Assembly: GCA_014860585.1 (NCBI GenBank)
Contig: JACZJL010000005.1
Location: 1 to 39,507, forward strand
Direction: 5' to 3'
Source: Bacteroidales bacterium
GTDB taxonomy: Bacteria; Bacteroidota; Bacteroidia; Bacteroidales; 4484-276
Length of the DNA stretch: 39,507 nt
Shown in pieces: positions 1,152-36,646 of this stretch. Each line of letters begins with the position of its first letter. Position 1 is the first letter of the stretch. The notes under the pieces are model-generated. The model had not been told where the DNA came from. It worked only from the letters and a program-made list of their open reading frames with translations, and made no database searches. A program made the position numbers and the translations under genes.

Positions 1152-2160
1152 AGATCACCCTGTAAACATCAGCACCATTGCCCGGGTTTGGGACATAAAA
1201 CCCAAGACGCTTTACGGATGGTATCGCAACCACCTGAGTGGATTTGACCAGGTGGTTACTGATGGCAGCTGGGGTTCATGCAAGATTGAGTCGGTTGATC
1301 AGCAAACCGGAGAGGTCACTCAAAAACCGGTTTACATTGTCAAGGCAGAAAACGTAGGCCAGGTGATGGCCATAGACGATAAGCAGATCGGAAGAGATAT
1401 GTTCACCATCATGTCCAATCAACAAACCGGCAAGATAGCCCTGCTCGTTGAAAGTCTCAAGGTGGATGAACTCAAAGAGGCTGCTGCGCATTTGGGCACT
1501 GCCGTAGAAAAAGTAAAAACAATCAGCAGCGATATGAGCCCTTCATACCTGAGATTTAATCGTGACATTTTCACCAACAGTCAACAGGTGGTAGACAAGT
1601 TCCATGTCATCCGTCATGTGCTTGATGCCGTTCAGGCTGTGCGTATAAGAATAAAGAATAACCTTCTGGCAACACTGCCAAAGCGAAGAAAAACACAAAG
1701 TGCAATCTCCCAAACCGACCATCAGGTGCTAAGCGATCTGGAACTGCTTAAACGAACTCAATACCTGCTTACACAAAATCAGAACAAATGGAATTATGAT
1801 CAACAAAGCCTGATGCAAGAACTTTTCACACGATTCCCCGAAATCAAAATAGCCTACATGATTAGTCAGGAATTTATCAAATGGTACAATAAATCCAATG
1901 GCCGATTACATCGTATTATCATCGAAACCAAACTCTTTGAATGGTATGAAAAAGTTGAAGAAAGCTATATCAAAGAACTCATCTCTGTGGCAAACCTGAT
2001 CGATCGCCATGAGGAACTAATCATCAACTATTTCCAAAAAGGAATAACCAATGCAAAAGCAGAAAGAATCAACGGTCAAATCCAACAATTCATCTCCCAA
2101 AACTATGGAATCAGAGACAAAGAATTCGTACTATACCGAATCTCTAAATACTTCTCTTAG
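1147..2160 (+). CDS. ISL3-family DDE transposase (orfB)
   Basis: This is the catalytic part of the transposase. Read from 1147, it begins IEDHPVNISTIARVW and then KTLYGWYRNHLSGF, a helix-turn-helix-like lead-in usual for this family. The catalytic acidic residues appear as AIDDKQIG, SSDMSPSY and NAKAERING, with VVDKFHVIRHVLDAVQ between the second and third. This matches the DDE_Tnp_ISL3 layout. The frame has no ATG near its beginning. The choices are an ATT at 1147 that overlaps the orfA stop (ATTGA), a GTG at 1252 that would remove the lead-in, or a +1 frameshift from orfA. I chose 1147 to keep the conserved lead-in. The TAG stop (2158-2160) is within the right inverted repeat. Confidence 0.88.
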   Translation: MEDHPVNISTIARVWDIKPKTLYGWYRNHLSGFDQVVTDGSWGSCKIESVDQQTGEVTQKPVYIVKAENVGQVMAIDDKQIGRDMFTIMSNQQTGKIALLVESLKVDELKEAAAHLGTAVEKVKTISSDMSPSYLRFNRDIFTNSQQVVDKFHVIRHVLDAVQAVRIRIKNNLLATLPKRRKTQSAISQTDHQVLSDLELLKRTQYLLTQNQNKWNYDQQSLMQELFTRFPEIKIAYMISQEFIKWYNKSNGRLHRIIIETKLFEWYEKVEESYIKELISVANLIDRHEELIINYFQKGITNAKAERINGQIQQFISQNYGIRDKEFVLYRISKYFS

Positions 2161-29531: not shown

Positions 29532-30875
29532 TTACAGTCCTAATCCCCCTTTGCCGCGATAGAGCCTGAGCGGGCCATCAAGTTCGACCTTAAGTACAGT
29601 CATGTATTTATCGGAAAAATTTTCCGGAACATCAATGTAAACCAGGCCGGGCACAGCACTCCATGAGATTTTACCCACCATCTTCCAGTCAACAGGCCGG
29701 TCTTGCCCAACCACGCTGATGTTTCTGATATCGTTGAACAATCCTTTGATAACGACTTGTCCGATCGGATTTCCTGCCAAAAACAAAAAGACAGAAGTAC
29801 TGTCTTTGGAAATGGTGGTTGGTCCGTAAAAGTGTCCCAACGGCACTCCGGCAAGGGTATTAAAAATTGCCTCCTCATGCTTGCTTGTCCAGTTTCCTAA
29901 TTCAGTCAGAATATTGACCTGTTCTTCCGGAATGAAACCATCTTCCCTTGGACCAATGTCGAGCAGCAGGTTCCCACCATGGCTGATGGCATCAGCAAAA
30001 ATGGAAATAACTTCGTAAGGAGTTTTGAATGCCGTATCGCGTGGTTGCCAACCCCAGGAATCATTGGTGGTCATGCACAGTTCCCAGTAATCAAAATCAG
30101 GACGCGAAACCGGGAAGTTTTGCTCAGGAGTTTCATAATCGCCGAATCCCTGCAGCCTCCCATTGATGATCGCTCTGGGATTGTGATCCAGGATGGTTTT
30201 GCGTAGTTTCTCTGCCTGCCACTCCTCAGCCGAATGTTCCCAGTCGCCGTCGAACCACCACAAGTCGGGGTTGATCAGTTGCAGCAATTCATCCATCTGC
30301 CCCTGGTAAAAGGAAAGAAAACGATTCCACCTGGCCGGATCCTGTTTTGCATCGTAACGCGAAGAATCCCTTAGAAATCCGGGATAATCAGGATAAGACC
30401 AGTCAATCAGACTGTAATACAGCCCCGTTTTAATTCCTGCCTTGCGCAGCTCGTCAATAAAAGGGGTGAGCACATCGCGCCGGGCAGGTGATTGTCGCGG
30501 GATGCTCAAATCATTCATTTTTGTATCCCACAATGCCACACCGTCATGATGTTTGGATGTAATCACTGCGTACCGTGCTCCGGAACGCCTGACCAGAACA
30601 GCCCATGCTTTCGGATCATAGTCCGAGGCCGTGAACCCTCCGATCTGTTTCAAGTAATCATCATGTGAGATGCGCTTGTTGTGAAACGCCCACGATTCAC
30701 TCGTCCCCTGCACAGAATAGATACCCCAATGTATAAATATGCCAAGTTTGGCATCGGCAAACCATTGCATCCTCTCTGTTGATGGTGACTGAGGCCTGCA
30801 GGTAACGGATAAAAAAAATATCCCGAAAAACAGTAACCAGGTTTTCTTTTTAGATGAAAAACAACAATTTTTCAT
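29532..30875 (-). CDS. GH29 alpha-L-fucosidase
   Basis: This 447-residue exported glycoside hydrolase of family 29 removes alpha-linked L-fucose from glycans. The catalytic domain begins RMQWFADAKLGIFIHWG and includes YAVITSKHHDGVALWD, GLYYSLIDWS, and the nucleophile segment PDLWWFDGDW with Asp209 as the likely nucleophile. NLLLDIGPREDG closes the barrel and a C-terminal beta-sandwich follows. The N-terminus is a signal sequence; FLSVTC could be a weak lipobox (Cys26), so a lipoprotein is possible. No SusC/SusD pair or other glycosidases are nearby, so this is not part of a visible polysaccharide-utilisation locus. Confidence 0.93.
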   Translation of the reverse strand: MKNCCFSSKKKTWLLFFGIFFLSVTCRPQSPSTERMQWFADAKLGIFIHWGIYSVQGTSESWAFHNKRISHDDYLKQIGGFTASDYDPKAWAVLVRRSGARYAVITSKHHDGVALWDTKMNDLSIPRQSPARRDVLTPFIDELRKAGIKTGLYYSLIDWSYPDYPGFLRDSSRYDAKQDPARWNRFLSFYQGQMDELLQLINPDLWWFDGDWEHSAEEWQAEKLRKTILDHNPRAIINGRLQGFGDYETPEQNFPVSRPDFDYWELCMTTNDSWGWQPRDTAFKTPYEVISIFADAISHGGNLLLDIGPREDGFIPEEQVNILTELGNWTSKHEEAIFNTLAGVPLGHFYGPTTISKDSTSVFLFLAGNPIGQVVIKGLFNDIRNISVVGQDRPVDWKMVGKISWSAVPGLVYIDVPENFSDKYMTVLKVELDGPLRLYRGKGGLGL

Positions 30876-31150: not shown

Positions 31151-32425
31151 ATGAGCACTTTGCAAGAATTAAATTCACAAGACCTGATTCAAAGGGACTT
31201 ACAAGACGAAGATGAGCCTCCGAGCCTGCATGGGCTTTCAACATCATCAACCGACGAAACTGTTGAGGAAATACCCTTTTTAGCCCGTTCCACCGACGGG
31301 ATTCCACCCACCTCCATGCGTTTCTTAAAAGCATGGTTCCCCGAAGCCACAGTCAGCAATTGGAACGACTGGCGCTGGCAAATAAAAAACAGCATCACCA
31401 GACCAGAACAATTATCAAAATTATTGAGAGACTTTGACCCTCACGGCGCCGGTCAGACGCTTACGCGACTGCTTCCTCTGAGGATCACCCCTTATTATGC
31501 AGGGCTAATCTGGGAATCAACACCTGACAATCCATTAAGAAAATCTATCGTTCCGTCAGCATCAGAGCTGGTATTAAGCGAAGGTGAATCAGCCGACCCG
31601 TTGCATGAGGAAAACGATAGTCCAATCCCCAACCTCGTGCATCGTTACCCCGACAGGGTGCTGTTTCTCTCTACGGGTTTTTGTTCGGCTTATTGCCGTT
31701 ACTGTACCCGCACACACATGGTATCTAAAAAGGACAAGTGCCATACCGGTGTGAAAGCATGGGAACCGGGATTGAAATACATTGCTGATCATCCCGAAAT
31801 CAGGGACGTGCTGATCTCAGGCGGCGACCCACTCACTATGCCCGATTCTCATATCAAATACCTGCTGATGCGGCTGAGGGCTATACCCCATGTCGAAATG
31901 ATCCGCATCGGGACAAAAGTGCCGGTTGTTTTGCCCATGCGAATCACCAAAGCATTTGTCGCCATGTTGCGCAAGTTTCATCCCCTTTACATCAGCATCC
32001 ATTTTACTCACCCCACAGAACTGACTCCTGAAACGGCACTTGCCTGCCAAAGACTTGCCGATGCAGGAATACCACTCGGCAGCCAGACCGTTCTACTAAA
32101 AGACATCAACGACAATGTGGATACGATGAAAAGTTTGATGCAGGGGCTGCTGAAAATCAGGGTAAGACCTTATTATCTCTACCAATGCGACCCGATACAA
32201 GGCTCACAGCACTTTAGAACACCTGTGGAGAAAGGGCTGGAAATTATTCGCGGGCTCAGGGGCTACACCTCTGGTTATGCCATTCCTCATTATGTAATTG
32301 ATGCCCCCGGGGGTGGTGGAAAAATCCCACTCTTGCCTGATTATTTCCAGGGTTACAATGAGCATGACGATGTTGTGCTGAAAAATTACCAGGGGAAAAC
32401 GTTCATTTACCCCGATGCCCATTAA
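31151..32425 (+). CDS. kamA: Lysine 2,3-aminomutase (radical SAM, PLP)
   Basis: This 424-residue enzyme moves the alpha-amino group of L-lysine to C3, giving beta-lysine, with a 4Fe-4S cluster, SAM and PLP. The cluster cysteines are Cys178, Cys182 and Cys185 (CSAYCRYC). Lys391 in DAPGGGGK matches the PLP lysine. Asp347 (YQCDP) and Asp384 (VIDAPGG) match Asp293 and Asp330 of the clostridial enzyme at the same offset of 54. Those two bind the substrate epsilon-amino group and are replaced in glutamate 2,3-aminomutases, so lysine is the likely substrate. It has an acidic, Ser/Thr-rich N-terminal extension of about 45-50 residues. It is first in a tightly packed operon with two ATP-grasp ligases and a GNAT enzyme, and no fermentation genes. 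Confidence 0.93.
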   Translation: MSTLQELNSQDLIQRDLQDEDEPPSLHGLSTSSTDETVEEIPFLARSTDGIPPTSMRFLKAWFPEATVSNWNDWRWQIKNSITRPEQLSKLLRDFDPHGAGQTLTRLLPLRITPYYAGLIWESTPDNPLRKSIVPSASELVLSEGESADPLHEENDSPIPNLVHRYPDRVLFLSTGFCSAYCRYCTRTHMVSKKDKCHTGVKAWEPGLKYIADHPEIRDVLISGGDPLTMPDSHIKYLLMRLRAIPHVEMIRIGTKVPVVLPMRITKAFVAMLRKFHPLYISIHFTHPTELTPETALACQRLADAGIPLGSQTVLLKDINDNVDTMKSLMQGLLKIRVRPYYLYQCDPIQGSQHFRTPVEKGLEIIRGLRGYTSGYAIPHYVIDAPGGGGKIPLLPDYFQGYNEHDDVVLKNYQGKTFIYPDAH

Positions 32426-32434
32426 TCGCTTCAG

Positions 32435-33424
32435 ATGAAAATCGGACTAACTTACGACCTTAAAAACGTTTACCTCGAAAACGGGTATGCTGAAGATGAA
32501 GTAGCGGAATTTGACTCAGAAGAGACCATTGAGGGGCTCGAAAAAGCATTGCATGAATTGGGTCACTCCACCGAACGCATCGGACATATTAAGCAATTGA
32601 CGGAAGCCCTGGTCAACGGCGCCCGATGGGACCTTGTTTTCAACATTTGCGAAGGATTGCATGGCATTGGCCGGGAAGCACAGGTGCCGGCTTTACTTGA
32701 CGCCTATGGTGTTCCCTTTACCTTTTCAGATCCGCTGGTGTTATCGCTTACGCTCCATAAGGGAATGACCAAACGGGTAATTCGTGATGCAGGGATTCCA
32801 ACGGCCCCTTTTCATTTAATCGAAAACGTAGACGAAATAGCCAACTGTCCCCTCCCTTTTCCTGTGTTCATCAAACCTGTTGCTGAAGGTTCTGGCAAAG
32901 GAATCAGCGCCAAATCTGTTGTTTACGATTCAGAAACATTCGTCCATGAAAGCAAAGCGCTGCTTATGACTTATCGCCAGCCAGTGTTGGTTGAGAAATT
33001 ACTGACCGGTCGCGAATTCACTGTTGGCATTTTAGGAACCGGAAAAAAGGCCAGGATTGCCGGGGTAATGGAAGTAACGATCAGAAAGGAAGCTGAGGAA
33101 CAGACCTATTCGCGGTTTATCAAGGAAAATTATCATGGACGGGTTGATTACCAACTGGTTGAAGGTGAAACAAGATCCGTTTGTGAGCGGGTGAGCCTCG
33201 ATGCCTGGCGGGTATTAGGATGCCGCGATGCCGGCAGGATCGACCTGAAAATGGATGAAAACGGCATCCCTAATTTCATCGAAATCAATCCGCTTGCAGG
33301 AATCAACCATATCCATTCCGACCTCCCCATCATGATGTACATGCAAGGCTGGAGTTTTAAACAACTGGTCGGAGAAATCATTCAGTCGGCATCCGAACGA
33401 ATTCATTCAAAAGATAAAAAATGA
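32435..33424 (+). CDS. D-Ala-D-Ala-ligase-like ATP-grasp ligase (first)
   Basis: This 329-residue ATP-grasp enzyme starts 9 bp after kamA. Its catalytic features are Lys109 and Lys147 (FIKPVAEGSGKGI, flexible Gly loop 151-156), Glu187 and Glu194 (VEKLLTGREF), and the metal ligands Asp270, Glu283 and Asn285 (RIDLKMDENGIPNFIEINP). The fold is that of D-alanine:D-alanine ligase, which activates a carboxylate as acyl-phosphate and forms an amide. Its place next to kamA and beside a second, different ATP-grasp argues against cell-wall Ddl. Beta-lysine is a plausible amine or acid substrate, by inference. The stop overlaps the next ATG. Confidence 0.9.
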   Translation: MKIGLTYDLKNVYLENGYAEDEVAEFDSEETIEGLEKALHELGHSTERIGHIKQLTEALVNGARWDLVFNICEGLHGIGREAQVPALLDAYGVPFTFSDPLVLSLTLHKGMTKRVIRDAGIPTAPFHLIENVDEIANCPLPFPVFIKPVAEGSGKGISAKSVVYDSETFVHESKALLMTYRQPVLVEKLLTGREFTVGILGTGKKARIAGVMEVTIRKEAEEQTYSRFIKENYHGRVDYQLVEGETRSVCERVSLDAWRVLGCRDAGRIDLKMDENGIPNFIEINPLAGINHIHSDLPIMMYMQGWSFKQLVGEIIQSASERIHSKDKK

Positions 33425-34383
33425 AAGTTGTCATCACCTATAACAAACCCGGCGAAAACGCACTCGAGGACGAGCTCGATATTCTCCATGAAGTCAGTCT
33501 CGTTTCCGGTTGCCTTCTGGAGCTGGGTCATCAACCCGTGGAGCTGCCCATGACGCTCAACCTGGGTGAAGCCTATAACTTTTTAAAAAACGAACAGCCC
33601 GACCTGGTGTTCAACCTCGCCGAATCGCTCGAAAACCACGGCGCCATTGTTTATTTTGTCCCTGCTTTGCTTGATGTGCTGCAACTTCCTTACACCGGGA
33701 CTCCAACAGTTCCTATGTTCCTGACTGCGGGAAAAACCCTTACCAAGCAGATCCTGCTTGATACCGGACTACCTGCACCGGGAAGTTATCAACCATCGGA
33801 AGCTTCAACGCTTCCTGACGGGAAATTTATCCTGAAACCTTTGTGGGAAGAAGGATCGCTTGGCCTCGACGAAGATTCGGTGTTTGACATCCCCTGTGCT
33901 GATATTTCAGAAATTTTAAAACTACCCGAAGACAAATATTTCATCGAACCCTTTATTGATGGACGCGAGTTCAATGTTTCGATGCTTGCCGGTGATTATG
34001 AACCCCAGGTGCTTGCTGTGGCTGAAATCCGTTTCATCGACTATCCTGCCGGTAAACCCAAAGTGTTGGGCTATAAAGCCAAATGGAATGAAGACAGCTT
34101 TGAATACCTCAACACCGTGCGGACCTATGACCTGGGTGAGGGGGGATCAGCACTTTATGCCAGGCTGGCTGATATATCGGTAAAATGTTGGAAAGCATTA
34201 GGATTGAGAGGTTATGCGAGGGTCGATTTCAGGATGGATACACAGGGCAATCCCTTTATCCTCGAAGTGAATGCTAACCCCTGCATCACCCCCGGAAGCG
34301 GTTTTTACGCTGCCTGTGAGCAAGCCGGAATTACCTTTACACAAGCTGTTGAAAGAATTATAAAAGACGCCCTGAAAAGATGA
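33421..34383 (+). CDS. D-Ala-D-Ala-ligase-like ATP-grasp ligase (second)
   Basis: This 320-residue protein is another ATP-grasp ligase of the same superfamily but clearly different from the first. The motifs are FILKPLWEEGSLGLD (Lys139, Gly loop near 145-149), EPFIDGREFNV (Glu176), and RVDFRMDTQGNPFILEVNANPCITPGSG with metal ligands Asp269, Glu282 and Asn284. The Gly loop is shorter and more acidic than in the first enzyme, suggesting another substrate. Its ATG overlaps the previous stop (ATGA), and its own stop overlaps the next ATG. Two sequential ligases would allow a tripeptide-like or doubly capped product. Substrates are not identifiable from sequence. Confidence 0.9.
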   Translation: MKVVITYNKPGENALEDELDILHEVSLVSGCLLELGHQPVELPMTLNLGEAYNFLKNEQPDLVFNLAESLENHGAIVYFVPALLDVLQLPYTGTPTVPMFLTAGKTLTKQILLDTGLPAPGSYQPSEASTLPDGKFILKPLWEEGSLGLDEDSVFDIPCADISEILKLPEDKYFIEPFIDGREFNVSMLAGDYEPQVLAVAEIRFIDYPAGKPKVLGYKAKWNEDSFEYLNTVRTYDLGEGGSALYARLADISVKCWKALGLRGYARVDFRMDTQGNPFILEVNANPCITPGSGFYAACEQAGITFTQAVERIIKDALKR

Positions 34384-34871
34384 AATCAAACCAAAAAATA
34401 CATTTCCGCTACGAAATCAAAAACTCCGATCCGGCAACGATTGAGGAAATCGTCAGGTCAACAGGTTTTTTTTACGAACACGAAATACCTGTCGCCTGCG
34501 AACTGGCCGAAGAACGCATTGCCAAAGGGATTGAAAGTGGCTATCTGTTCGTTTTTGCCGAAATTGACGAAAAAGTGGTCTCTTACGCCTGCTACGGTTT
34601 AACCCCCTGCACGGTTGGCACTTATGATCTGTACTGGATCGTAACCCACAACGATTATCGCGGGAAAGGGGCCGGAGTCAGCGTGCTCAATGAAACGTTG
34701 CAACAGGTCAGGTTGTTAAATGGCCGAATGCTCATCGCCGAGACCTCTACCAAGGAGCAATACCAGCCGACAAGGGCGTTTTACGAAAAAAATGGTTTCG
34801 TTTGCGAAGCCCGGATCACCGATTTTTATGCCCCCGGAGATGGTAAGGCGGTGTATGTTTACAGACTGTGA
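34380..34871 (+). CDS. GNAT-family N-acetyltransferase
   Basis: This 163-residue protein has the GNAT acetyl-CoA motif A, WIVTHNDYRGKGAGVSVL (R-G-K-G-A-G at residues 94-99), and the C-terminal pattern RAFYEKNGF. It is the fourth gene of the kamA group and its start overlaps the previous stop. In methanogens the aminomutase AblA is paired with the acetyltransferase AblB to make N-epsilon-acetyl-beta-lysine, an osmolyte. AblB is longer, so this may be only a functional analogue. It could acetylate beta-lysine, the ligated product, or self-protect against it. The acceptor is unknown. Confidence 0.85.
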   Translation: MKSNQKIHFRYEIKNSDPATIEEIVRSTGFFYEHEIPVACELAEERIAKGIESGYLFVFAEIDEKVVSYACYGLTPCTVGTYDLYWIVTHNDYRGKGAGVSVLNETLQQVRLLNGRMLIAETSTKEQYQPTRAFYEKNGFVCEARITDFYAPGDGKAVYVYRL

Positions 34872-35039: not shown

Positions 35040-35879
35040 ATGCAGAGCAAAAATGTTCCAAAACAAATTAAAACAATGGACGATCTGGAAAAAAGCGTAG
35101 TTGAATCCCTTGATGGAGCGGCCAATCCCCGGCTTTATCCTTACCTGCCTTATATTTTGCAGGATGTTTGGGAATTGGGAACCGATCCCGGGATAGTCTT
35201 TGAACTTGTTCAACAACACATTCAGATAACACCGCTCAAAGTGCTTGACTTAGGCTGTGGAAAAGGGGCTGTCTCCATCAGGCTTGCCGAAGCGCTTGAC
35301 TGTTCTGTGCTTGGAATTGACGGCCTGCCTGAATTCGTAAGCGATGCGCAAAAATACGCCAGCAAACAAAATGTCACTGATAAATGCCGGTTTGAAACAG
35401 GTGATGCCCGCATCAAAGTGCTTGATTTGAAAGATTTTGACCTGGCCATCCTGGGAGCTGTCGGCCAGCTTTTTGGAGATATCCACCAAACCCTTACGAT
35501 AGTTGGGAGAACAATAAAACGTGACGGTTACATCATTCTTGACGATGGCTGGATCCCCAACGAATCATCAACAGAGTACAACCGGTGCCTGCGCAAATCT
35601 GAATTTTATCGTCAGATAAAAACTGCAGGTTTTGAAATTGTTGAGGAAAGGGGATTTGATCAGGGATTTATCGATGAGGCCAATCGTAGTATTTTCGAGG
35701 CCATAAAAAAAAGAATTGATGAGCTGATTCAAAGAGAGCCGGTAAAAAGAACTATTTTTGAGCATTATCTTGAAGTACAAAAACATGAAAATCAAATGAT
35801 GGCCACCGAAGTGATTTGCGCATTGTGGTTACTAAAAAAGATGGATGAACCAAACCTTACGGGGTTTTTAAAGGAATAA
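35040..35879 (+). CDS. Class I SAM-dependent methyltransferase (first)
   Basis: This 279-residue protein has a Rossmann SAM-binding domain with motif I VLDLGCGKG (residues 68-76), the acidic motif II GIDGLPEF and the motif FDLAILGAVGQ. A C-terminal helical region of about 60 residues (RIDELIQREPVKRTIFEHYLEV) is additional. It may methylate a small molecule, but no substrate motif is recognised. The start could also be Met13 at 35076 (MDDLEKS). It is 168 bp after the GNAT gene, with a hairpin between, and 2 bp before the next methyltransferase gene. Confidence 0.83.
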   Translation: MQSKNVPKQIKTMDDLEKSVVESLDGAANPRLYPYLPYILQDVWELGTDPGIVFELVQQHIQITPLKVLDLGCGKGAVSIRLAEALDCSVLGIDGLPEFVSDAQKYASKQNVTDKCRFETGDARIKVLDLKDFDLAILGAVGQLFGDIHQTLTIVGRTIKRDGYIILDDGWIPNESSTEYNRCLRKSEFYRQIKTAGFEIVEERGFDQGFIDEANRSIFEAIKKRIDELIQREPVKRTIFEHYLEVQKHENQMMATEVICALWLLKKMDEPNLTGFLKE

Positions 35880-35881
35880 AA

Positions 35882-36646
35882 ATGAAACAATGGTACGAGT
35901 CTTTATTTGAAAATTATGGCCGCAAGTACGACCAGGAGTGTTTTGTTCAGGGAACAACCGGGGAATGCGATTTCGTAGAGAAGGAAATCAATTTTGACAG
36001 AAGTATCAACATCCTCGACATCGGTTGTGGAACCGGGCGACATGCCATCGAGCTGACAAAGCGCGGTTACAAAGTAACAGGCATCGACCTGTCGGAATCG
36101 CAGTTGAGCAGAGCAAAAGAGAAAGCCATAGCAGAAAATCTGCACATCACTTTTTTGCAGCATGATGCCCGGAATTTACCTTTTACAGAGGAATTTGACC
36201 TGGCCATCATGCTTTGTGAAGGGGGCTTTCCGCTGATGGAAACCGATGAAATGAATTATCAAATTTTGCAAAATGCTGCCAAAGCGCTGAAAAAGTCCGG
36301 AAAATTTATTTTTACCACCCTGAACGGCCTGTTCCCGATCTTCAACTCATTCAAGGAATTTTACGACGCCAACCATCAGGAGGGTAATGCATCCTACGAA
36401 AGCCAGTCATTCGACCCGATGACCTTTCGCGATCATAACATCACGATCGTGGAGGATGACGACGGAAACAAAAAAGAGCTGGTTTGCAGCGAGCGCTACT
36501 ACATCCCGTCAGAGATCACCTGGCTGCTCAAATCGCTCGATTTTAGCAAAATAGATATCTTTGGTGGAAAACTAGGGGAATTCAGCCGGGACCACAAACT
36601 CACCACCTCCGACTTCGAAATGCTGGTGATTGCTGAAAAATTATAA
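35882..36646 (+). CDS. Class I SAM-dependent methyltransferase (second)
   Basis: This 254-residue methyltransferase has NILDIGCGTGRHAIEL (motif I, residues 43-58), GIDLSESQL (motif II) and FDLAIMLCEGGFPLME after the cofactor-binding strands. It is not closely similar to the preceding methyltransferase, so the pair is not a recent duplication. The start is 2 bp after the previous stop, indicating co-translation. It may act with the first methyltransferase on the same substrate. Whether the pair belongs to the kamA pathway is undecided. Confidence 0.85.
   Translation: MKQWYESLFENYGRKYDQECFVQGTTGECDFVEKEINFDRSINILDIGCGTGRHAIELTKRGYKVTGIDLSESQLSRAKEKAIAENLHITFLQHDARNLPFTEEFDLAIMLCEGGFPLMETDEMNYQILQNAAKALKKSGKFIFTTLNGLFPIFNSFKEFYDANHQEGNASYESQSFDPMTFRDHNITIVEDDDGNKKELVCSERYYIPSEITWLLKSLDFSKIDIFGGKLGEFSRDHKLTTSDFEMLVIAEKL

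Follow-up and report, generated by a model that had tools for sequence, protein, structure and literature searches.

A conserved operon of a KamA-family aminomutase, two ATP-grasp ligases and an acetyltransferase: a candidate pathway of beta-lysine conjugation

What does a cell make with a putative lysine 2,3-aminomutase, two different ATP-grasp ligases and a small acetyltransferase that are encoded side by side? The question is raised by the genes kamA-lig1-lig2-gnat (Table 1) of a Bacteroidales bacterium; the window, i.e., the whole stretch of DNA analysed, comprises 39,507 nucleotides. By the ORF list of the window, the four genes form a single operon on the + strand with gaps of 9, -4 and -4 bp, and the tight packing described in the first-pass annotation is borne out by these coordinates. 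The operon is here read as a pathway of beta-lysine conjugation, leading to an amide or peptide and including an acetylation step. We put the probability of this reading at about 0.62. Genes of beta-lysine fermentation were not seen among the 18 window ORFs scanned with Pfam. The window has no Rfam match at the gathering score; the promoter/terminator scan yielded 15 versus 10.2 in shuffles and 8 versus 7.0 in shuffles and is not informative.

Table 1. The four genes of the operon (positions within the window)
Gene	Position	Strand	Length	Predicted product and features
kamA	31151-32425	+	424 aa	Predicted lysine 2,3-aminomutase, radical SAM; N-terminal extension with EPPS motif
lig1	32435-33424	+	329 aa	ATP-grasp ligase, D-Ala-D-Ala ligase superfamily
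lig2	33421-34383	+	320 aa	Second, different ATP-grasp ligase, same superfamily as lig1; 4 bp overlap with lig1
gnat	34380-34871	+	163 aa	Small GNAT N-acetyltransferase; 4 bp overlap with lig2

Whether the four families stay together in other genomes, a check named in the first-pass annotation, can be answered in the affirmative: all four are found in 58 of 80 named-genome loci that had been chosen by lig1 alone. By record title, the carriers belong to several phyla. Among 160 annotated loci there are 108 four-gene loci, a count that holds at least two genomes twice (L102/L181 and L125/L162), and in all 108 the four genes share one strand. Their order is not fixed. In a second Bacteroidota tier it reads lig1-lig2-gnat-kamA (21/26 fetched loci). 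Fusions into one frame also occur, of lig2 with gnat in 8 loci, of an acetylpolyamine-amidohydrolase-like domain with gnat in 8 loci (one genome counted twice) and of gnat with agmatinase in one. The set is not always complete. In 18 of the 80 named loci, several of which end at a contig edge, gnat was not recognised; room for it is available in L060, L083, L103, L108, L119, L120 and L128. The second ligase is missing in 7/80 and kamA in 6/80, and L060 and L061 lack kamA at the locus despite room.

The linkage extends beyond the locus. At E <= 1e-60, lig1 is present in 68 of 395 sampled genomes of the window's phylum and in 104 of 297 from the phylum to which L102 (according to its title a Desulfobacterales MAG) belongs. 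When the latter 297 genomes are sorted by lig1 and by a KamA of >= 475 bits, 95 have both, 9 lig1 only, 11 KamA only and 182 neither (Fisher p ~1e-53, uncorrected for kinship and with the 475-bit line set after viewing the list). The 25 lig1 genomes that show no kamA at the fetched ligase locus all encode a KamA-family protein elsewhere, in 21 cases with >= 475 bits. The earlier claim of a single pathway is thus supported by conserved order, shuffled order, gene fusions and genome-wide co-occurrence. A local accident of adjacency is ruled out by the conserved loci, the shuffled but preserved set and the co-occurrence of lig1 with KamA. The presence of KamA alone is no sign of the pathway: a family match at E <= 1e-60 is found in 103/104 genomes with lig1 and also in 89/193 without it (hand count), and nine relatives (L041-L049) have KamA without ligases in the fetched flanks. 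A search of plasmids returned 14 records with 27-30% identity in the best pieces; judged by genus, 13 are rhizobial.

KamA itself passes the KamA-family radical SAM model TIGR00238 with 355.4 bits (cut-off 199.2). Aligned to the lysine 2,3-aminomutase 2a5h, it displays the radical SAM motif CX3CX2C as C178/C182/C185, a PLP lysine (K391) and the two aspartates for the lysine side chain, D347 and D384. The phmmer alignment is ungapped over the relevant stretch with an offset of 54; Asp347, Asp384 and Lys391 therefore correspond to D293, D330 and K337 of 2a5h, its lysine-binding residues (D293, D330) and PLP lysine (K337). Equivalents of all three are found in the window KamA and in 147/147 ligase-linked KamAs, and so the earlier statement that the enzyme keeps both aspartates holds well beyond this genome. 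The radical SAM cysteines are seen in 145 of these 147; the remaining two are gapped at that place. Given the invariant aspartates, beta-lysine is the likely intermediate, as judged from the alignments; the aspartates alone are no proof that lysine is the substrate. Glutamate and arginine aminomutase were considered and rejected, with scores below the respective cut-offs (405.5 < 650; 371.7 < 600) and the Asp/Asp pair kept. Glutamate aminomutase has other residues in place of the two aspartates.

The enzyme is also not a typical AblA. It stays under the cut-off of the AblA equivalog TIGR03820 (446.6 < 525.4 bits), and N322 occupies the position of Cys268. The C-terminal cysteine tail CXCX2C, which together with Cys268 makes up the zinc-site motif of AblA-type LAM, is absent from the window KamA and from 147/147 ligase-linked KamAs; it is present in 4/7 unlinked ones. 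In a tree of 68 rows, which sampled 48 of 127 KamAs sharing the lig1 locus and 10 of 20 located elsewhere, the ligase-linked KamAs are not strictly monophyletic: there are 5 label changes, of which at least 3 are forced. The window KamA falls into a 35-row clade (100/100), separate from five ligase-free relatives (98/99); the ligase-free rows L046 and L047 are unplaced.

Both ligases contain Dala_Dala_lig_C (91.7 bits in lig1, 76.6 in lig2; cut-off 24). Their predicted structures match those of D-Ala-D-Ala ligases (Ddl), lig1 that of 4zqi (Z 30.7, 2.2 A over 289) and lig2 that of 8evy (Z 30.9, 2.6 A over 286), with other Ddl rows tied in either case. Like the Ddl family, they keep the ATP-grasp fold, the active-site Arg/Glu/Asn and the omega-loop Lys. 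Among 34 aligned lig1 sequences E25, K230, R268, E283 and N285 are invariant, among 33 of lig2 K221 and W222. Yet they are probably not Ddl enzymes. On TIGR01205 they reach 116.7 (lig1) and 85.1 bits (lig2), both under the cut-off of 245.65, and the Tyr216 of Ddl is replaced by E231 and W222, respectively; the omega-loop Lys-Tyr hallmark is K215-Y216 in E. coli DdlB. That either of them is the cell's own Ddl is ruled out by a distinct Ddl elsewhere in the genome (279.7 bits on the same model). The view that these ligases are distinct from the genome's own Ddl is supported by the separate gene, the missed cut-off and the lost tyrosine.

The last gene product is recognised as Acetyltransf_1 (41 bits) and belongs to the family of PDB 2r7h (E 4e-52 across 156 profile positions), the title of which, 'putative D-alanine N-acetyltransferase', is the depositors' name only.

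From these components a pathway can be drafted. KamA would convert L-lysine to beta-lysine, as its invariant lysine-binding residues suggest. Lig1 and Lig2 would act in turn, each using ATP to activate a carboxylate and couple it to an amine, and thereby build beta-lysine into a small amide or peptide; this role is suggested by the fold, by the conserved catalytic residues and by the linkage. The GNAT may acetylate an amino group, either on beta-lysine itself or on its conjugate; the acetyl group would cap the finished product or mask one amine for a time and so steer the ligase to the proper one. Elsewhere the set is joined by the two-domain GNAT/acetylpolyamine-amidohydrolase-like protein, which could remove or exchange the acetyl group; an amidohydrolase-type protein is encoded, for example, by Desulfatitalea alkaliphila (L124). 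A comparable logic has been proposed, in PMC2922099, for aminoacyl-tRNA-synthetase-like dipeptide pathways: a GNAT acylates lysine N6 and leaves the alpha-amine for condensation. The acylation of a lysine-type amine before condensation would be shared; the ligases are different, and the main text of the paper nowhere uses the term 'aminomutase'.

Arginine-decarboxylase genes lie beside the ligases in 13 loci, the kamA of those genomes being elsewhere. The pyruvoyl type is found in 67/104 lig1 genomes versus 72/193 without lig1 (p 1e-5) and, with the 13 adjacent cases removed, in 54/91 (p 5.6e-4). The window genome does not have it. An obligate link is ruled out by the 37/104 lig1 genomes that lack the gene. 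As ligation partner in part of the family, polyamines or other cationic amines are a weak lead. In the clusters printed for the second-tier loci and for the polyamine loci, the conserved flanks look by eye like housekeeping or transferase genes. The amidohydrolase loci show no recurring neighbour cluster; a hydrolase-like gene and others are found repeatedly upstream in 14 named Bacteroidales-type loci, which probably reflects shared ancestry. Judging by this setting, the product would belong to primary rather than secondary metabolism. A bolder version, rather doubtful as a whole, would be a widespread and so far undescribed pathway in the primary metabolism of sediment and anaerobic bacteria, yielding beta-lysine amides, possibly beta-lysyl-polyamines. 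Acetyl would be a protecting group: the GNAT would block an amine, the two Ddl-fold ligases would assemble the conjugate, and the acetyl group would be taken off again by an enzyme of the acetylpolyamine-amidohydrolase type.

Other readings have to be weighed. KamA and GNAT could form acetyl-beta-lysine, by the AblA/AblB logic, and the ligases could lengthen it into a peptide solute without net charge, after the fashion of N-acetylglutaminylglutamine amide (NAGGN). The wide distribution and the housekeeping-like look of the printed conserved flanks would suit such an osmolyte; it is nevertheless unlikely. Record titles of several carriers suggest lakes or groundwater, and no osmotic gene was spotted by eye in the printed neighbour clusters. 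The operon shares with the AblA/AblB pathway of N-epsilon-acetyl-beta-lysine an aminomutase and, by inference, a GNAT acting on beta-lysine, but it has two extra ligases, and its KamA lacks the C-terminal zinc region. Its gnat is no AblB: TIGR03827 leaves it unmatched at E <= 0.001 and finds nothing in the window genome. Plain acetyl-beta-lysine, an option of the first-pass annotation, is disfavoured because AblB is missing and the two ligases would stay unexplained. NAGGN synthesis combines ATP-grasp and GNAT enzymes to make a small capped dipeptide. The operon has the same combination; its precursor would be beta-lysine, however, and TIGR03103 is not among the matches listed for the window proteins (best 25 per ligase).

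Quite improbable is the attachment of beta-lysine to a macromolecule (an EF-P-like protein, lipid or peptidoglycan) with the ligases as modifying enzymes. The KamA relative EpmB serves EF-P beta-lysylation, and ATP-grasp enzymes can modify proteins. A KamA-family enzyme and the use of beta-lysine are indeed common to both systems. The operon's KamA, however, remains beneath the EpmB cut-off (TIGR03821, 253.5 < 369.3 bits), and the genome has no EpmA above cut-off; the best genX match, a 573 aa frame with 243.9 < 286.9, is probably LysS. Both ligase models, moreover, fit compact Ddl structures over almost their full length.

A secondary metabolite that contains beta-lysine and acts as a signal or like an antibiotic has very little probability. 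Antibiotics and their biosynthesis do feature both beta-lysine and ATP-grasp ligases, and one locus (L066) has an MFS transporter gene between lig2 and gnat. No conserved partner was recognised, however, as a tailoring or resistance gene, and the antibiotic-like compound proposed earlier is disfavoured because the printed conserved flanks look housekeeping-like by eye and the four-gene core is spread across phyla. That the ligases act on D-alanine and are linked to kamA incidentally is hardly credible: the Ddl fold (Z ~30) and the Ddl models as top NCBIfam scores of both speak for it, the separate Ddl, the replaced Tyr216, the co-occurrence of lig1 with KamA and the shuffled but preserved set against it.

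Beta-lysine conjugation thus remains the preferred reading. No description of the gene set was found in the open-access literature among the matches listed; the 2009 amidoligase survey, where the set is most likely to have been mentioned before, was outside that search. The products of these four genes, which have stayed together in many bacteria far apart in phylogeny, probably convert lysine to beta-lysine and couple the latter to further small molecules. The set would show what its carriers use beta-lysine for besides fermentation, osmolytes and EF-P, and it supplies enzymes that are open to direct testing. If the reading holds, ligases whose best models are named 'D-alanine--D-alanine ligase' need renaming. 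A metabolite so common yet unnamed would then mark a real gap in bacterial metabolism.

The operon encodes a KamA radical SAM protein (a predicted lysine 2,3-aminomutase), two ATP-grasp proteins of the Dala_Dala_lig_C family (Lig1, Lig2) and one GNAT protein. The tight packing described in the first-pass annotation is borne out, the intergenic gaps being 9, -4 and -4. Our preferred reading is a pathway of beta-lysine conjugation: KamA would form beta-lysine, Lig1 and Lig2 would condense it in two ATP-dependent steps, and the GNAT protein would cap or protect one amine. The gene set, its conservation, the KamA residues and the predicted ligase fold with its departures are read directly from sequence. 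PMC2922099 provides a parallel for the protecting group, there proposed for lysine N6 in dipeptide condensation.

Features of the window and of related loci
Sequence	Position	Strand	Feature
Window	1252-2160	+	ISL3-type transposase domain, ~29 kb away from the operon
Window	29532-30875	-	alpha-L-fucosidase gene (Pfam 284.6 bits), transcribed divergently from kamA
Window	31151-32425	+	kamA
Window	31151-31350	+	N-terminal extension of linked KamA; variable apart from the conserved [EDQ]PP motif
Window	32435-33424	+	lig1
Window	33421-34383	+	lig2
Window	34380-34871	+	gnat
Window	35040-36646	+	two SAM-dependent methyltransferase genes after gnat
L054	5680-8001		only a short 44-bit kamA-like frame with EPPS motif, upstream of a GNAT-amidohydrolase gene and lig1
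L148-L150, L182, L183, L185, L187-L189, L193, L194, L197, L199			ligase pair with pyruvoyl arginine decarboxylase, mostly with agmatinase; kamA elsewhere

A homologue of the first methyltransferase also follows gnat in the same-genus genome G002 (48.8% identity), where the fucosidase gene is kept upstream of kamA as well (73%); in L148 a methyltransferase adjoins lig2.

Among 59 genomes of relatives, the window's own included, 36 have a KamA-family match of some kind and 12 one of at least 498 bits. In 10 of the 11 non-window genomes at this level lig1 adjoins kamA; in the eleventh, G003, the contig stops behind kamA. The set is complete in six of the 11 (G002, G010, G033, G038, G023, G037), the contigs of G001, G007 and G054 end inside lig2, and gnat was not recognised at the kamA-lig1 locus of G028. 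Nine further KamA-family places in relatives (L041-L049) have no ligase within the fetched flanks, that of L045 lying on a contig of only 5.7 kb.

Beyond these relatives, named genomes scanned with the lig1 alignment yielded at least 569 confirmed relatives. Record titles of lig1 carriers include Bacteroidetes, Desulfobacterales, other Deltaproteobacteria, Acidobacteria, Planctomycetes, WOR-3 and Neomarinimicrobiota. The best 80 of these loci contain kamA in 74 cases, lig2 in 73 and gnat in 62; conserved co-occurrence, which the first-pass annotation had suggested looking for, was found in 58 of the 80, where all four families stand together, in several phyla by record title. At E <= 1e-60, lig1 is present in 68 of 395 sampled genomes of the window's phylum (own included) and in 104 of 297 of a second phylum, that of L102, a Desulfobacterales MAG by record title. 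Eighty sampled stretches comprise 26 loci of the window's phylum, L202, which merely extends a contig, and 53 places of the second phylum, picked by hand across the score range. The set is complete in the order lig1-lig2-gnat-kamA in 21 of the 26; the other five have lig1 alone. All four genes share a strand in 108/108 four-gene loci (160 loci annotated, at least two genomes counted twice: L102/L181, L125/L162). The lig1 relatives at L160, L161, L215, L216 and L218 lack lig2, gnat and kamA in the fetched stretch; their genomes each have KamA elsewhere, split over two contigs in G499.

The association holds genome-wide. In the 297 second-phylum genomes, lig1 and KamA of at least 475 bits (profile A1, a line set after the score list was viewed) occur together in 95, lig1 only in 9, KamA only in 11 and neither in 182 (Fisher p ~1e-53, odds ratio 175; shared ancestry is not corrected for). 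When every KamA-family match at E <= 1e-60 is admitted instead, a count by hand gives 103/104 lig1 genomes versus 89/193 without lig1. Twenty-six sampled loci lack kamA. A search of 25 of the corresponding genomes found a KamA-family gene elsewhere in every one; it scores at least 475 bits in 21, and the matches in G093, G131, G499 and G324 are weaker or split. The 26th, G084, has KamA (563.7 bits) on a different contig. Where kamA and ligases are separated, a small gene recurs beside kamA (14 loci, L236-L249); the L239 copy matches MerR_1 (29.1 bits), and a regulator is possible.

Both aspartates that bind the lysine side chain were said in the first-pass annotation to be kept, and so they are: since the alignment to lysine 2,3-aminomutase 2a5h is ungapped over the relevant stretch (offset 54), Asp347 and Asp384 correspond to D293 and D330, and K391 to the PLP lysine K337. 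These three positions are invariant across 147 linked KamAs (127 sharing a locus with lig1, 20 encoded apart from it in lig1-bearing genomes); 145 also have the cluster cysteines, and the other two have gaps at these positions. None of the 147 has the C-terminal CXCX2C tail, which occurs in 4/7 ligase-free relatives. Grouped by lig1 score, the [EDQ]PP motif is present in 89/94 KamAs at 400 bits or more, 1/4 at 300-400 and 2/29 below 300. It was not found in the seven ligase-free relatives tested, and is perhaps a docking motif. The L054 frame is possibly a shortened or interrupted kamA. The KamA tree places the window inside a 35-row clade (support 100/100), apart from a clade of five ligase-free relatives (98/99); ligase-linked KamAs together do not make one clade.

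Could the ligases simply be D-Ala-D-Ala ligases (Ddl)? Their predicted folds are of this kind. The predicted structure of Lig1 (pLDDT 90) best matches the solved Ddl enzyme 4zqi (Z 30.7, 2.2 A over 289, 26% identity), that of Lig2 (pLDDT 94; Foldseek also run) 8evy (Z 30.9, 2.6 A over 286, 25%). In an alignment with the genome's own Ddl, position E15 of Ddl is acidic in both (an invariant E25 in Lig1, the majority residue E18 in Lig2), and both retain the lysine of the omega loop as well as Arg, Glu and Asn of the active site, with roles that we take to be those in E. coli DdlB. The tyrosine following that lysine, however, is replaced, by E231 in Lig1 and W222 in Lig2. Against the Ddl model they score 116.7 and 85.1 bits, both below the cut-off of 245.65, which the genome's own Ddl, on a different contig, passes with 279.7. 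Lig1 and Lig2 are expected to act as carboxylate-amine ligases, but on substrates other than D-Ala-D-Ala. In L144 and L145 one frame encodes two ligase domains. Ddl-like ATP-grasp proteins (27-30% identity) are also found in plasmid records H1-H14, mostly rhizobial, including Sinorhizobium fredii NGR234 NC_000914.

As to the partner in the proposed beta-lysine conjugation, a polyamine is a lead, not a finding. In 13 second-phylum loci, picked from the low-scoring end, a pyruvoyl arginine decarboxylase adjoins lig1-lig2, with agmatinase in 11 and a deoxyhypusine-synthase family gene in five; each of the 13 genomes encodes KamA elsewhere, scoring at least 557 bits. Enrichment of the decarboxylase with lig1 is modest (67/104 genomes versus 72/193 without), and the gene is absent from the window genome. 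The window GNAT is a member of the 2r7h family; the depositors labelled that structure "putative D-alanine N-acetyltransferase". A fifth protein, GNAT plus a histone-deacetylase-type domain, occurs in 13 of the best 80 of at least 569 named loci and in 6/80 sampled stretches, the L173 instance being a weak match on the opposite strand. Its second half is nearest to acetylpolyamine amidohydrolases (9gkz 235 bits, 3q9b 223); two-domain HDAC6 constructs (at most 198.6, two stretches) and HDAC10 (94.7) match less well. Among relatives it lies between kamA and lig1 in G010 and on a separate contig in G037; the window genome yielded no full-length copy, just a stretch of the second half with 39% identity. 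Fusions join gnat to the amidohydrolase-like protein (8 loci), to lig2 (8 loci) and, in L112, to agmatinase (TIGR01230 220.8 over 174.3).

No description of the four-gene set was found in the open-access literature searched; the component families are of known kinds, and their combination appears to be new. The conserved flanking genes listed for further Bacteroidota loci resemble, as judged by eye, housekeeping genes, which suggests that the four-gene pathway belongs to primary metabolism.
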